A DNA stretch of 34,988 nt, from the IMG/VR virus record IMGVR_UViG_3300027734_000182, positions 1 to 34,988 of that record; one strand, 5' to 3'. Below the pieces are notes generated by a model. It was not told the origin of the DNA and did not search any database. It saw only the letters and a program-made list of their open reading frames with translations. Shown piece by piece: positions 18,601 through 29,427 of this stretch. How positions within the stretch are numbered: position 1 is the first letter of the stretch; each line of letters starts with the position of its first letter. The position numbers were made by a program, and so were the translations under genes. Source of the stretch: a virus.

Positions 18601-19584
18601 TTAAGCAGTACCTGTCAACACGCCTTGTAGGAAGCTGTTAGAACAAGTCAAGTTACCAGCCCAACCGTATAACTTCACGATTGCATCTTGGTTGATTGAC
18701 TGACGCTCGCCACCGATAGGTACAAAGTTACGCTCTTTGTGTGGGCGTAGGAAAATGTAGTTAGTGTTCAAGAAGTACATATAGTTTGCAGTTTCTTGAG
18801 CGCCATAACCACCGCCTAATACCACATCAGCAGACATACCGCCACCGTAGAACTTGAGTGATGCGAAACCAGCCGCACCTTCGTCTACACCAGCAATACG
18901 CTGAATAGCTTGCAATGAAGCTACATAGCGTTGATACAGAGTGTTACCAGCAACAATTAAATCAACCTTATCAGTTCCACGAACGGACTTGATAGCGGCT
19001 GAAGTCATAGCGGCTTGGATCAATGCGGCTGTGTCAGCACCTGTGGATGACTGATTCTGCCAGAATGTCCAGTTAGCACGGTTGATGCCACCGTAAGTTC
19101 CTGTGGTATTTGAAACTGGGCAAGCGGCCGCCAAACCTGTAATGTTTTTTCCGCCATTACCTGTACCGTCACCATAGATGTCAGTAGAAATACGGTTTAA
19201 CAAGCGAGCCTCAGAAACTTGCATACGGCCATCTAACAGGTCGATAATTGCTTCTTTTGAGCTATTTTGCAACATTTCTAAACCACTCATTGTTACGCTA
19301 TCAGCGTACTGAGTAATTGAGAATTGAGCCGCAGAAATAGGGCTATCAGGAGTGATGTTCAATACTTCGTAGCCACTATAAGAGTTAGCATTGTTAGTAT
19401 TTGGATCGTTGTACATGATCTCCTCAAGGATCACATTACCGCCTGAAAACGGGCGAACATTACCTTTAGAGTTCAAACGCTGAAGAATTGCGTTGTTTTG
19501 TGTTAAGTTGTCTGCCAATACTCCGCTACGGCTTTGAATGGTAGTAGCGATAATATCGGTGATTGCTGAGTTAGCAAAAGCCAT
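18601..19584 (-). CDS. Major capsid protein
   Basis: A 327-aa protein typical of podovirus HK97-fold capsids. The N-terminal arm has SGVLADNLTQNNAILQRL; next comes GGNVILEEIMYND; around residues 70-120 is FSITQYADSVTMSGLEML; the P-domain helix follows (SSKEAIIDLLDGRMQVSEARL); and the C-terminal domain has YMYFLNTNYIFLRPHKERNF. It is flanked by scaffold and decoration-like genes. AAGGAAA precedes the ATG. The capsid identification is firm from pattern and context. Confidence 0.85.
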   Translation of the reverse strand: MAFANSAITDIIATTIQSRSGVLADNLTQNNAILQRLNSKGNVRPFSGGNVILEEIMYNDPNTNNANSYSGYEVLNITPDSPISAAQFSITQYADSVTMSGLEMLQNSSKEAIIDLLDGRMQVSEARLLNRISTDIYGDGTGNGGKNITGLAAACPVSNTTGTYGGINRANWTFWQNQSSTGADTAALIQAAMTSAAIKSVRGTDKVDLIVAGNTLYQRYVASLQAIQRIAGVDEGAAGFASLKFYGGGMSADVVLGGGYGAQETANYMYFLNTNYIFLRPHKERNFVPIGGERQSINQDAIVKLYGWAGNLTCSNSFLQGVLTGTA

Positions 19585-20721: not shown

Positions 20722-21114
20722 TTATCTAAGTTTTGCGTATGCAAGTTCGGCAATTTGACGCTTGCGTGATTCGTTTTCTGACCTGCTTAATTCATGTTTT
20801 TTTTGCTCAAAAGACACATCATTGCCTATTTCAACGCAATTATTGCGTTTAAGGTTTTCACGATGGCTTGATCGGCTACCTACCCATTGACCGTCAGCCA
20901 TAGATATGTGGCCTTCAATGTCTGATATGACGATTGGGGCTTCTTTTGGGGTCATGTTTAACTTATCCTGCCATGCTTTATCAGCTTCTTCGCCTTCAAA
21001 TGGCAAATTCCAGTAAGCAAGGTACTTTTCACGGTCATCATAGTGCGCTGGGTCGTATTCCTCATGGGAAACCTTGCAATGGTTACAGGTTACGGTCATT
21101 TTTACTAAAGCCAT
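20722..21114 (-). CDS. Small conserved phage protein with CxxC
   Basis: A 130-aa protein with a CNHC pair at residues 10-13, then APIVISDIEGHISMADGQWV and SRSSHRENLKRNNCVEIGND around residues 59-98, a pattern seen in many phages near head genes. The C-terminal half is basic and helical. A metal-binding knuckle is possible, although only one CxxC is present. Its ATG shares one base with the glycosyltransferase stop. Role unknown. Confidence 0.65.
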   Translation of the reverse strand: MALVKMTVTCNHCKVSHEEYDPAHYDDREKYLAYWNLPFEGEEADKAWQDKLNMTPKEAPIVISDIEGHISMADGQWVGSRSSHRENLKRNNCVEIGNDVSFEQKKHELSRSENESRKRQIAELAYAKLR

Positions 21115-22022
21115 TACATTCTCCTAATAAGTTCGGGCAATTGATCGTATTCGTGGGGTCTAAGTAAGCAAATGCTGTCATACCAACGGGCATTTTTCCA
21201 ACGCCAGCAGACAAATTCTTCTTTTGGCAATAAAACAATGGTTTTTACTCCTAATGCGCCTGCAAGGTGAGCCGTTCCTGTATCTACAGTAACAATTCCC
21301 TTCATGGCCTTCATGTGTGAAGCAGTTTTAACCCAGTTTTGCTTCCAACCATCGTTAGGTAATGGGTGAAATAAGCCATCTGACTGTGGATTTAGCGAAT
21401 AAGCGTCATCACCAATCATTTCTTCCATGTGTTCATGGGCAATAGATTTGATGTAATACAAAGTTTGCTTGGATGCTTCCCAATTTACGCCAATCTTGGG
21501 CGGAATGTTGCTTGGTTGGGCGTGAAGATAGCCTTCAGAACCCATAATTTTGTTCCGTGTTACTGGAAACATAGCTTTAATAATAGGATGCGACAGCGAT
21601 ATGTAGTACGGCAAAGACATTGAGCCAATCCAATAATCAGATTCTTTGGCAACACCATTTTCAAGATCGTTGCTAAACACATCTACAGCGTGTATTTGAC
21701 CTAATAGGTGGTGCAATGTACCTTCTTGCAAGACAACTACCCTAGATGCCCCTAAAGCCTTCAATGCAGGCAAAAAACGGGCAAACATAATAATGTCACC
21801 AAAGCCTTGCTCCATCTGAACTGTGATGGATTTACCGATTAGCGGTTCACCCCTCCATACTGGCATTTTTAACGCAGGTGCATAAGGCTGGGCTTGTTTG
21901 GCAATAATGTCTGGATGCCAGCGGTATTCAAACCCCCTAAAACCAGCTTCATAGCGACCAGCGTGTAGGTGTTCGTAAGCCTTCTTGTATTCCGAATGTG
22001 GATCTAGTGGAGCAGTAGTAAT
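21114..22022 (-). CDS. Glycosyltransferase (GT9/TPR-GT-like) with ATT start
   Basis: A 302-aa sugar transferase. HAGRYEAGFRGFEYRWHPDI (residues 21-40) matches the last TPR-like helix and YRW motif before the catalytic part in TPR-linked glycosyltransferases. Next come WRGEPLIGKS, QMEQGFGD (69-76), VDTGTAHLAGALG (246-258) and CWRW (272-275), the nucleotide-sugar-side motifs. A start at ATG 21866 would delete the first 52 residues. The frame is open up to 22031 with no ATG, GTG or TTG; ATT at 22022 gives (M)TTAPLDPHSEYKKAY and has GAGG seven bases ahead. It overlaps the upstream gene by 19 bases. It may decorate virion fibres or host surface sugars. A -1 frameshift from the upstream gene is the alternative. 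Confidence 0.7.
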   Translation of the reverse strand: MTTAPLDPHSEYKKAYEHLHAGRYEAGFRGFEYRWHPDIIAKQAQPYAPALKMPVWRGEPLIGKSITVQMEQGFGDIIMFARFLPALKALGASRVVVLQEGTLHHLLGQIHAVDVFSNDLENGVAKESDYWIGSMSLPYYISLSHPIIKAMFPVTRNKIMGSEGYLHAQPSNIPPKIGVNWEASKQTLYYIKSIAHEHMEEMIGDDAYSLNPQSDGLFHPLPNDGWKQNWVKTASHMKAMKGIVTVDTGTAHLAGALGVKTIVLLPKEEFVCWRWKNARWYDSICLLRPHEYDQLPELIRRM

Positions 22023-22480
22023 AGTGCGGCCTCATCGTCAAGTTCCTCTTGGCGTTTGGCTTCCATTACCATTAGTTGCATTTCAATATTTGCAACTTCT
22101 TGTCTGTAAGCTACTGCCGCAAGGATGTTATCCCGTTGTCTTTCAAGGTAGCTTATTGACCGTTGTAAATCTTCTGTTTCAGCTAACGGTATATCAGCCT
22201 TAACCTCTTGTTTTGATTGTACTTTAGTTTGCTTAACTTTAGCAACAGGATCAATTAAATCCTTAAATGCTTGCTTGCGTGAAGCATTAGCATCTTTTGT
22301 AGCTTGCTCTAATTTGCGTTGGCGTTCAGCAATCTTTAGCTGAATCTTTTGTATTCTGCGTAATTCTTCTTTTGTTACCCAAGCATCATCACCGCCTACC
22401 CTAGTTTCTACAGGTGGTTGGCCATATATTTGAAATGCGTTATTTTGAAACGCATTAGCTTGGAAAGCAGTAGAAAACAT
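22004..22480 (-). CDS. Hypothetical coiled-coil protein of the fibre module
   Basis: A 158-aa protein. It starts with the repetitive MFSTAFQANAFQNNAFQIYG, a head found on many small phage structural proteins, then a long charged coiled coil (about residues 35-150), ending in a run of five leucines. Its ATG shares one base with the stop of the glycine-rich fibre gene and its end overlaps the glycosyltransferase. It may be a fibre-associated linker or chaperone; no family role is known. Confidence 0.6.
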   Translation of the reverse strand: MFSTAFQANAFQNNAFQIYGQPPVETRVGGDDAWVTKEELRRIQKIQLKIAERQRKLEQATKDANASRKQAFKDLIDPVAKVKQTKVQSKQEVKADIPLAETEDLQRSISYLERQRDNILAAVAYRQEVANIEMQLMVMEAKRQEELDDEAALLLLLH

Positions 22481-25099: not shown

Positions 25100-27169
25100 T
25101 TATAAAACTACCCAGCGACTACCGCTAGGAACAGTTACAGATTGACCTGTTGCTACAGTTACAGGGCCTACAGACATTGCATTATATCCACTAGCAATAC
25201 TAAAACTTGCGCCTACTGTGGCGTTGTTCATTACTAAACCATTGCTTGCAACTAGGTTAGGTGCGGTCAATGTTGAACTTGCATAAGTAAAGCTAGAGTT
25301 AGCGCCAAAAGCACCAGCATTGTTGTATTGAACTTGGGTATCAGAACCAGCAGGACTAGCCGCTACTGTTGCCCATGTGCCATCACCACGCCAATAAGTG
25401 CTAGATGTTGCACCTGTACCGCTATTTAAGTTAGTTACAGGTAAATTGCCAGTTACTTGGGTAGCTAGGCTTACATTGGATAATGTGCCACCAAGGGTCA
25501 AATTTCCACTTGAAGTTACCGTGCCAGTTAATGTAATACCGTTTACTGTGCCTGTGCCACCTACGCTAGTTACAGACCCACTACCTTTTCCATTAAAAGT
25601 ATTCCAATCGGTACTTGTCAAATAACCGTTAGTTGTTGTATTGGCGGCAGCCATGCTAATAGCTGGGGTTGCACCACCACTACTTACTACTGGGGCAGTT
25701 CCAGTAACAGAAGTAACTGTCCCTTGTGGATTAGAAGCGGTAGTTATGCTAGTTACACGACCATAAGTATCAATAGTGACTACTGGAATAAGACTAGATG
25801 AACCAGTTGTTCCAGCCGTTGCTACACCACTTGCAAGGTCAATTACAGGGGTTGTTCCACCTGTAGAAGTAATGCGACCAGTAGTTCCGCTAACGCTAGT
25901 TACCGTGCCACCGCTAGATGGGCTTGTATTGGTAATAGTGAAGTTAGGGTATGTACCGCTAGTGCTTATGCCTGTGCCAGCAGTTAAAACTACTGTTTGG
26001 TCAGGCGCACTATTGGTAATAGTTAATGTACCGCTAGTAGTAATAGGGCTACCACTAACAGTTATTCCTGTGCCTGCGGTTGCTGCTACGCTTGTAACTG
26101 TGCCTGTATTACCTGTAAGCAAAGTGCCATTAGCAGTTACTGTATTTGCAAAAACAGCAGTTGAATCTTGGTTTATGGTTAAAGCGGTAACTTGGGTAGT
26201 TGTTGTATTAGGTGTAACTTTGATTACAGCCTTTGTACCCCTAGCAACAGCACCCCACGCTTCTGTAGCAACACCCTCTAAAGAAGCCTGTGGATAACCT
26301 TCTGAAGAAGTTGTGCCGTAACCAGCTAATTCAAACTTACCTAAACTGTCACCGCTTTGTGGTGCTTGTGGTGCGCCAGCCGTACCCCTAAATTTAGTAA
26401 CACGAATAGCAGAACTATTGGCATCACTTGAATAACCACGCATAGCAATACGGGAAGATGAGTTGTTATCACCGATTGCCCTAATCTTAATAGTTGGTAC
26501 AACAGCAGTTCCAACGCCTAAATTACTTACATTGGTCAAAGACTTGTTGTTTAAGTCTACTGCGCCTGTTGCACCTGTATATGGGACTGCGCTTACATCT
26601 GCGGCAGTTAATACTACTGTGCCTGTATAGCCGTTTACGCTAGTTACCGCATCAGTATTGTCTACCTTCTGCCATGCCGATCCGTTATATACCGCCCAAT
26701 CGCCCACCACCCAATCAGTAATACCGTTGAGGTTAGTGCTACCAGCAACATTAACAACATAGTAATAACCCTTAGTACCCACAGAACTGGTGAGAGTAGG
26801 TGTATTAGTAGAGGCGTTCCATGTGCCTTGATAACTTAATGCTCCTAAAACTGCGGCTGGTAATTGGCTAATTGGTACTGTACCACTACCGTCTAGTGTT
26901 GCAACGCCATTGGCTACGCCTGCGTCTTTAGTTGATGCCGTGCCAAGACCAGTAATATCTGTATTAGGAATAGTAGATGAGGCTGTCATATTAGCCGTGC
27001 CACTACCCTTAACATAACCTGTAAGTGTTGCCGCACCTGTACCACCGTTAGCTACAGGTACAGTTCCTACTAAATCATGGCTATCGTTCCAATTAGACGG
27101 CTGAACAATTGTAGTATCACCAGCATCAGGTATTGCGCTGACAAACTTATGTTTGACTGTTATAGCCAT
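25100..27169 (-). CDS. Long tail fibre protein
   Basis: A 689-aa fibre. The head, [20 protein letters not shown] then [20 protein letters not shown], is a common podovirus fibre start. It is followed by [20 protein letters not shown] and [20 protein letters not shown] (about 108-175) and [20 protein letters not shown], then many T/S/G repeats of the TVTSV-GTGITVS type. The tail ends in a strand unit ([15 protein letters not shown]). It has no S74 or lysozyme domain. Its ATG overlaps the portal stop (TAATG). Repetitive coding creates long open frames on the other strand. Confidence 0.85.
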
Positions 27170-29427
27170 TATTGAACCCCAATAATTTTACCGTCTTGTC
27201 CCCGTACCACTTGTTTAGGTCTATTGTGGTTTTCGTTAATAGTGTTTACTAGGTCACCTAGGGCTAATGTCATTTGTTGATTGCTTTGGCTAATAGCATC
27301 TGCAATAGGCTGTAATGGGTGTTGCATAGATGCGGCCATAGCTTCTTCAGATAAATAAGCCTGTTCACCAGTAGATTCATCAGCACCGATACGGGCAACT
27401 TCGATCTTTGCACCGTTGTTAATGTGCGCTAACAAGACCTGAGTATTGCGCTCGGTATTCATCTTCATCTGAGCAACCTTGATTTCCATCTCACGATCCA
27501 TCATATTGCGCTGTTCTTCAAGCTGGAATTTAAGCTGGTTTTCTTGTGCTTGATATTCTTGCTTGGCCTTCTCAAGCTCCATCTGCATCTGCATCTTCTG
27601 TTGTTCAAGCTGAGATTGAGCCTGCATCTTGGCCTGATCCATCTGCGCTTGCATCTGTAATTTTTGTATTTCAGGTGATGGTGGCTTGGGTTGACCTTCT
27701 GCCGCTTTAGCTTGTTCACGGAACTTATCAGCAGTTTCGTCAATCATGCCTTCCATTTGCTTGCCAGCCTTAAACGCTGTTACGCCAAACTTGAGCATTT
27801 CCATTAGCAACGGAGTAAGTTCAGGTACGCCCTGTGCTACTGGTAGGGCTGTCTGCATATAGCTACTGACTGCGGCCAAGAACTCAATGCGGTTTTGCTT
27901 TTCTTGCTGTTCATCCTGATAAATCATCGAATCGCTAGTCACTTCAATACGGAAGTTCTTAGCTGGTTCATTCTTTAGTAATTCAAGGGCTTTCGGTATA
28001 AGTTTTTGATCTTGCTGAGATAATTGCATTGCACCGCTAATCTTAACGATGGTGTCATCGGTAAAATGCTGGCAAATAATCTGTGCTTTGATCTGCAACA
28101 AGGCTGTAGCAAAGTTCACTACATCGTGTTGCATAGTCTTTAAACGCCCTGAAGCGTTGTTAGACTTGATAATCTGTGCGCCTAGTGTTTCGCTTGGATC
28201 GGTTTGGCCACGCTGAATGTCAGCAATGCCCATAATCTCGTAGATTTGACCCTTAACCTGATCCATAGCTTGATAAGCCATAGTCAATGCTTGAGCAATT
28301 GGGGCAATATCTACAAGGTTAATAGCTCCTGCCATGCCCTGCTTTTCAGCAAACGCACCCCAGTTTTTAATTGGCAGAAGTGAATTGTTTTCACCTTCAG
28401 TAAACAAACGCTGTAAGGATGGCTCAGATGCGTCATATACGCCACGAACCTTGAGGGCTTGAATGAATCCATCAATACGATCTGCCAGCGTGTCTAGCTG
28501 TCTTGCTTGGTCTTGGTAAAGAACAAAGTCAGGAACTGGAACAAGAGTATCAGTTGTCAGGGTTGAAAACATTGGCTTTGGACATGGCCAAAAGTTTTCA
28601 AGCTGTAGCGGATCATCACGGGTATCAAGGATCTTGCCTAAAGACTTAGATAGCCATAAAACTTGACCTGTAGTTTTATCCCAAATCTCATAAACAACGG
28701 CTTCAGATGCACCTTCGCCCATCTTTTCGTTAAATGTTTTGGATGTTTCTGGCTTGGTATCAAGCGGAATCTTACCGCCCAATTCTTCACCAAAGCGCTC
28801 AACAAGGGCTGGTCTGCCCATATAAACCTTACGCCATACTGCTGTTACTTCTTCCCATGTACGGGCTACGGTTAAGCCAAAATCACGCCAATGAACATAA
28901 TCAACAGGAGCGCACTCATATTCAATGCGTTCTTGGTTTTCACGATGGATGCCGCCTTCGGTTTCAGCTTCATCAATATCTTCTGTAATCTGGTAACCGT
29001 CATCGGGTGCGCCTTCACCTTCACCACCAGCTTCGCCAGTAATATGTGGCTCATAACGAACCCAAGCTGTACCACGCCCACCTAATAAACGGTCTTGAAC
29101 CGCTTGTTTCATGGCGCTGGCATAGTCACCATAATGTTCAACTTCATACTCCAAAGCCCGTTCTAGCATCATTGATGCCACTCGGCCTACTGGATCGTTA
29201 TCACGGAATCTACGGCTTACATCTGGTCTTGGTAAACGGGCAAATACCGCTGGGGTAATGGTTTGAACATTGCTCCACAGGATATTAAATTTGGCATTAG
29301 GGTTATTCCTAGTGCGGTTGTCATCACGGTAACGCTTAACAATCTTGTCTGCTCTGCCTTCCCATTCTTTATAAGTACGCTCGTACTGGGCAATGCAGTT
29401 GTACCAATCTTGGTATGTATGTTCCAT
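27169..29427 (-). CDS. Portal protein
   Basis: A 752-aa podovirus portal. Familiar parts are [20 protein letters not shown] and [20 protein letters not shown] at residues 33-72, the [17 protein letters not shown] block near 185, and [20 protein letters not shown] near 395. The last 200 residues are a Q/M/K/E-rich coiled coil ([20 protein letters not shown]), as in the barrel of P22-type portals. Twelve copies form the packaging and ejection channel. It follows the large terminase by four bases. Confidence 0.9.

Follow-up and report, generated by a model that had tools for sequence, protein, structure and literature searches.

A conserved ATT codon as the probable start of a GT9-type glycosyltransferase gene in a group of mostly lake phages

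The glycosyltransferase (GT) gene on the minus strand of the window (the whole 34,988-base stretch of viral DNA analysed here) is very probably translated from an AUU codon at position 22022, preceded by GAGG, and its translation is probably coupled to that of the gene upstream. Comparison across the phage clade to which it belongs shows that a T-ATT-A motif with GAGG ahead of it has been kept throughout, with no canonical start available to the gene.

Read from the ATT, the GT9-like CDS occupies 21114–22022 on the minus strand (302 aa, stop TAA at 21116–21114) and its predicted product begins ITTAPLDPHSEYKKAYEHLHAGRYEAGFRGFEYRWHPDI. An in-frame TGA at 22034–22032, also found in aligned relatives, closes the frame upstream and so shuts it to entry from further upstream; past this TGA the frame reads GGC CGC ACT ATT ACT ACT GCT. 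Between 22031 and the first in-frame ATG (21866–21864) we counted 55 codons with no stop and no ATG, GTG or TTG, in agreement with the first-pass annotation of this DNA, and the start-less open extensions of the other listed minus-strand genes of the window ran to 0–20 codons. The candidate initiation codon (22022–22020) is flanked by T at 22023 and A at 22019, giving T-ATT-A, and the Shine-Dalgarno-like GAGG lies at 22033–22030, separated from it by the seven-nucleotide spacer CCGCACT, as that annotation had also described. The ATT falls within the upstream 158-aa gene (22004–22480, minus strand, ending in EELDDEAALLLLLH with a TAG stop at 22006–22004), for which no Pfam, PHROG or NCBIfam match was obtained. 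The two genes overlap by 19 nt (22004–22022), with the GT in the −1 frame relative to the 158-aa gene. At the other end the ATG of the next gene on the same strand (MALVK..., 130 aa, 20722–21114) shares 1 nt with the GT stop.

Relatives were taken from IMG/VR, either confirmed by tblastn or matched by pattern, and removal of duplicates left 230 distinct sequences (172 start-less and 58 with an ATG); the phages that carry the gene form a large group, mostly from lakes. Among the first 80 relatives the ATT stood 7 nt past GAGG (GAGA in a few) wherever upstream DNA was present, and no ATG, GTG or TTG lay ahead of the conserved N-terminus. In an intermediate distinct set ATT was the sole ATG-like codon common to all members (128/128). 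The complete start-less set gave the same picture: ATT was present in the GT frame in 172/172, always as T-ATT-A and in relatives as low as 62% identity, and a canonical start before the conserved Tyr anchor in none. The Shine-Dalgarno element was GAGG in 167 and GAGA in five, which together with the invariant ATT supports the original proposal that this codon is the GT start. Spacing from the element to the ATT was 7 nt in 142, 4 nt in 26 and 10 nt in 4; the shortness of GAGG and the less than ideal spacing of 4 or 10 nt in 30/172 count against an ATT start. The start lay before the upstream stop in every case, with overlaps of 16 nt (94 relatives), 19 nt (72) or 13 nt (6), which is the geometry of translational coupling. 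Homologues in isolated phages in GenBank (27% and 23% identity) were too distant to inform the start, and the bacterial genomes searched yielded no GT homologue.

A single base change would restore an ATG in any one genome, and a sequencing or assembly error could in principle have removed it. However, 172 distinct sequences share the start-less state, and they come from many independent metagenomes, so the probability of such an error is negligible, and the recurrence in independently assembled contigs excludes the indel near the start that had been named beforehand as a possible refutation.

The ATT in a single genome proves nothing, because under a codon-usage null the Leu-rich tail of the upstream gene would contain some −1-frame ATT with a chance of about 0.60 per sequence, and T-ATT-A with a chance of about 0.45. 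Nor are the 172 relatives independent, since by the GT tree the ATT class is one clade with one origin; the weight rests on the absence of change along the tree. All 36 of 36 sub-clusters defined at a tree depth of 0.15 had the ATT, for which the chance expectation is about 1e-8, although the clusters are not fully independent. In the upstream frame the A of the ATT ends a Leu, Ile or Val codon and the TT open a Leu codon, and we counted substitutions in both on a GT tree of 117 sequences. The codon supplying the A (TTA, CTA, ATA or GTA) had undergone about 29, 0 and 1 changes at bases 1, 2 and 3, respectively; the mean number of third-position changes per codon in the 158-aa gene was 18.4. 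The codon that follows encoded Leu in 117/117 and was TTA in 114, though CTN codons are common in the 158-aa gene; the remaining three had CTA, with the ATT shifted one codon later. On these counts the ATT is held by the GT frame and not by the upstream protein.

The ATG at 21866 is the first canonical start in the GT frame and the choice a gene caller would make, giving a 250-aa product for which the open frame upstream would be incidental. A UniProt phage homologue of exactly 250 aa, 63% identical and aligned over its full length, appears to favor this reading, though it probably reflects the same automatic choice of start; its size is that expected from an internal-ATG call and suggests an actual truncation, in keeping with the earlier prediction that gene callers would shorten this protein. 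The region between the overlap and 21866 nevertheless gave a dN/dS of 0.12, similar to the 0.10 of the remainder of the GT, and this comparison shows the N-terminus before 21866 to be under purifying selection. The same N-terminus is present in all ATG-class orthologues, which supports the view that it belongs to the protein. Among the 172 relatives the first in-frame ATG was found anywhere from 18 to 99 codons past the anchor, at the position equivalent to 21866 in only 73, and four (L229, L192, L175 and L211) had no ATG at all ahead of the core motif. Because of this dN/dS and the poor conservation of the ATG we consider the 250-aa product very unlikely and judge the ATG at 21866 to be internal. 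The invariant N-terminal residues in 25 diverse members include H18, L19, H20, G22, R23 and Y24, and an AlphaFold model placed helices at residues 8–20, 24–35 and 37–40, all encoded upstream of 21866, with block pLDDT of 83–90 for the first two. Initiation at the ATT would predict an N-terminus of M-TTAPLDPHSEYK, or TTAPLDPHSEYK following removal of Met.

The position of the GT in the −1 frame of the 158-aa gene and the conservation of the overlap would also be compatible with a programmed −1 frameshift producing a fusion protein, as had been suggested for checking. A search running from the −1-frame TGA to the upstream stop found no X_XXY_YYZ slippery heptamer in any of 128 overlaps and a homotetramer in only one. 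In addition, a tRNA on TTA would be unable to re-pair with ATT in the invariant T-ATT-A, and the existence of GT relatives with a separate ATG start argues against a fusion; this explanation is highly improbable. A +1 shift following an out-of-frame ATG in GATGAGG was also considered and rejected, as the codons leading up to the ATT vary (CAC, CCG, CGC, GCA and others) and offer no common slip site.

The ATG-type orthologues, recovered in searches with the upstream protein of relative L348 and with an ATG-type GT, served as a comparison. In the 58 distinct members the ATG was reached through an ATGA stop/start overlap (34) or after a leader of about 20–45 nt (24). Only 6/58 had an ATT in the GT frame, and a single small clade, which has the ATG as well, accounts for five of these; in the start-less class the figure was 172/172. 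Codon pairs at the equivalent site were diverse (TTA CTG, ATA CTG, ATT TTA, ATC GTT and others). It had been proposed to examine whether the ATG of relatives falls at the ATT codon. It does so in L348, where the ATG stands in place of the ATT of its close relatives (MSSNLN.. vs ISSNTLN..), and in the 57 others it falls at nearly the same residue, the distance from the start to the conserved Tyr being 6–11 codons in these 57 and 8–11 codons in the ATT class. When the GT tree was rooted at its midpoint, the two start types fell into separate clades, L348/L361 being the sole exception. This pair is nested in the ATT clade and has an ATG with a leader; its motif has been lost (AGC ATT CTG vs AGC ATA TTA), and L384, a member of the ATG class, has an upstream gene 91% like its own. 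It is probably a recombinant (positions 1354–1400) in which an upstream gene and leader of the ATG class were joined to a GT of the ATT clade.

Several other arrangements were observed at this locus. A phage of the same group (L402) has no GT here, its upstream gene being followed directly by the MALVK gene, and it has TTG TTG at the site equivalent to the ATT. In five genomes (L398, L401, L470, L472 and L475) the leader before the GT contains a short frame, GTG-ATT-ACT-TAC-GCA-GAA-CTG...TGA, which overlaps the GT ATG as ATGA and may be a coupled mini-ORF. In L360 (about 570–725) the GT frame has neither ATT nor ATG, which would count against an ATT start, though the DNA upstream is unrelated to the usual gene; this contig may be rearranged or chimeric, or the gene may be dead. 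One 41-kb contig (IMGVR_UViG_3300028393_000135) carries two GT loci at opposite ends (L006 and L014), which could reflect a duplication, the joining of two genomes or a terminal overlap.

A borderline Pfam score and the predicted structure point to a GT-B glycosyltransferase, of GT9 type, whose N-terminal part is helical. The Pfam GT9 family PF01075 scored 21.9 bits, at the border of the gathering cutoff of 22, and was matched at E<=0.01 by 54/62 GT members; no PDB entry was matched by sequence. An AlphaFold model built from a 62-row alignment reached a pLDDT of 88 (52 with 25 rows), and Foldseek matched it to 3tov, TibC and WaaC with a probability of 1.00 and a TM of about 0.5, indicating a heptosyltransferase-like fold. 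The same fold was found in GT9-like/TPR-GT proteins of uncultured Caudovirales phages and of Synechococcus phage S-SRM01. The record contains terminase, portal, head and tail genes, among them the portal (phrog_12082, 27169–29427; 38% identity to Bradyrhizobium phage ppBjS10J-1) and the major head protein (phrog_9953, 18601–19584). No closely related phage isolate was found for this group. The location of the GT beside glycine-rich, tail-like genes suggests that it may add sugar to the virion or to the host surface.

We propose that a ribosome placed by GAGG would initiate at AUU 22022, within the final codons of the 158-aa gene, using initiator tRNA with Met as the first residue. Ribosomes ending the 158-aa gene would probably assist, by termination-reinitiation or by unmasking of the site; the first T of the upstream stop lies 16 nt downstream of the A of the AUU. 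Initiation would be weak and IF3-sensitive, as has been documented for other AUU starts (PMC5472188, PMC13009471); initiation at non-canonical codons is repressed by IF3 (PMC5472188), as is re-initiation without a Shine-Dalgarno element (PMC2268962). As to origin, it is plausible that the ATG of an ATGA overlap was lost and that an upstream in-frame AUU took over. The sister clade still has ATGA overlaps; in a few of these genomes (CTA TTA ATG CTC TTATGA) an in-frame AUU already lies 12 nt ahead of the ATG.

Why the AUU has persisted can be read in two ways. Its retention could be due to history and to the constraint of the overlap, with no regulatory role; it would then be a relic whose loss would be lethal to the gene and whose replacement by ATG is made difficult by the overlapping Leu codons. 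The single origin of the ATT class, the overlap with upstream coding and the absence of anything unusual in RNA structure around the start (z +0.5) are in line with such a relic, but L348, nested in the ATT clade, shows that an ATG is reachable, and the A at +4 is also fixed although the AUU itself does not need it; we give the relic somewhat less than an even chance. Alternatively, weak and coupled synthesis would keep the enzyme scarce among tail and structural genes, and this may be the reason an AUU is tolerated or preferred. The fuller proposal, that the AUU has been maintained as a regulatory start and ties a scarce GT to structural-gene translation and to the host IF3 level, with the flanking U and A acting in extended initiator-tRNA pairing, we hold to be possible but doubtful. 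The fixed U and A might strengthen pairing with the initiator tRNA; an extended codon-anticodon pairing model was reportedly put forward by Esposito in 2003, as cited in PMC1397820.

Very few AUU starts have been documented (infC, pcnB and cvfC1), and a survey reconstructed one AUG-to-AUU switch among 61,358 ancestral AUG starts (PMC5622118). The ATT clade, its sister ATG clade and the ATG genome nested within the former provide a ready comparison for why a poor start codon persists. In practical terms, a caller restricted to ATG, GTG and TTG would remove about 52 residues of the GT, and hidden start codons can be exposed by synonymous constraint in a gene that overlaps them. Conserved AUU starts are already known as a kind from infC and cvfC1. 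The open-access papers searched gave no example of a conserved AUU start in a phage gene. Within that literature, what is new is the occurrence in a phage, the location of the start inside an overlapping gene, and a sister clade with ATG that serves as a control.

A close parallel is E. coli infC, which has an AUU start with a Shine-Dalgarno element upstream and the same T-ATT-A context as the phage GT (GGAGGAATAAGGT-ATT-AAA), and whose non-canonical start is likewise conserved. The discrimination of IF3 against AUU makes infC autoregulatory (PMC5472188); the GT, in contrast, is unconnected to IF3 and belongs to a phage, where it overlaps the adjacent gene. E. coli pcnB, encoding poly(A) polymerase I, is a half-match: its start region (GAGGTGTACT-ATT-TTT) has GAGG 6 nt before the ATT and T at −1, as in the phage GT, but the gene is chromosomal, without overlap, and has T at +4. 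The pcnB start is described as translationally limited (Binns and Masters 2002, as cited in PMC13009471). In S. aureus, cvfC1 (AUU) and ccpN (AUA) have non-canonical starts whose output in poor medium was shown to be about 10% of that from AUG, a figure that for AUU comes from reporters, and start and Shine-Dalgarno element are conserved together, for cvfC1 among staphylococci and for ccpN between S. aureus and B. subtilis (PMC13009471). The phage GT shares this joint conservation; cvfC1 and ccpN, however, have a long extended Shine-Dalgarno element and proof from ribosome profiling, while the GT has a 4-nt element within an overlapping gene and a start proposed from comparative evidence. Finally, Streptomyces sigR has a GTC start in 32/34 species, repressed by IF3 to set stoichiometry (PMC5472188). 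As in the phage GT a rare start is conserved across a group, in this case a genus, although the sigR codon is GTC or GTT and not AUU, and its product is a sigma factor.
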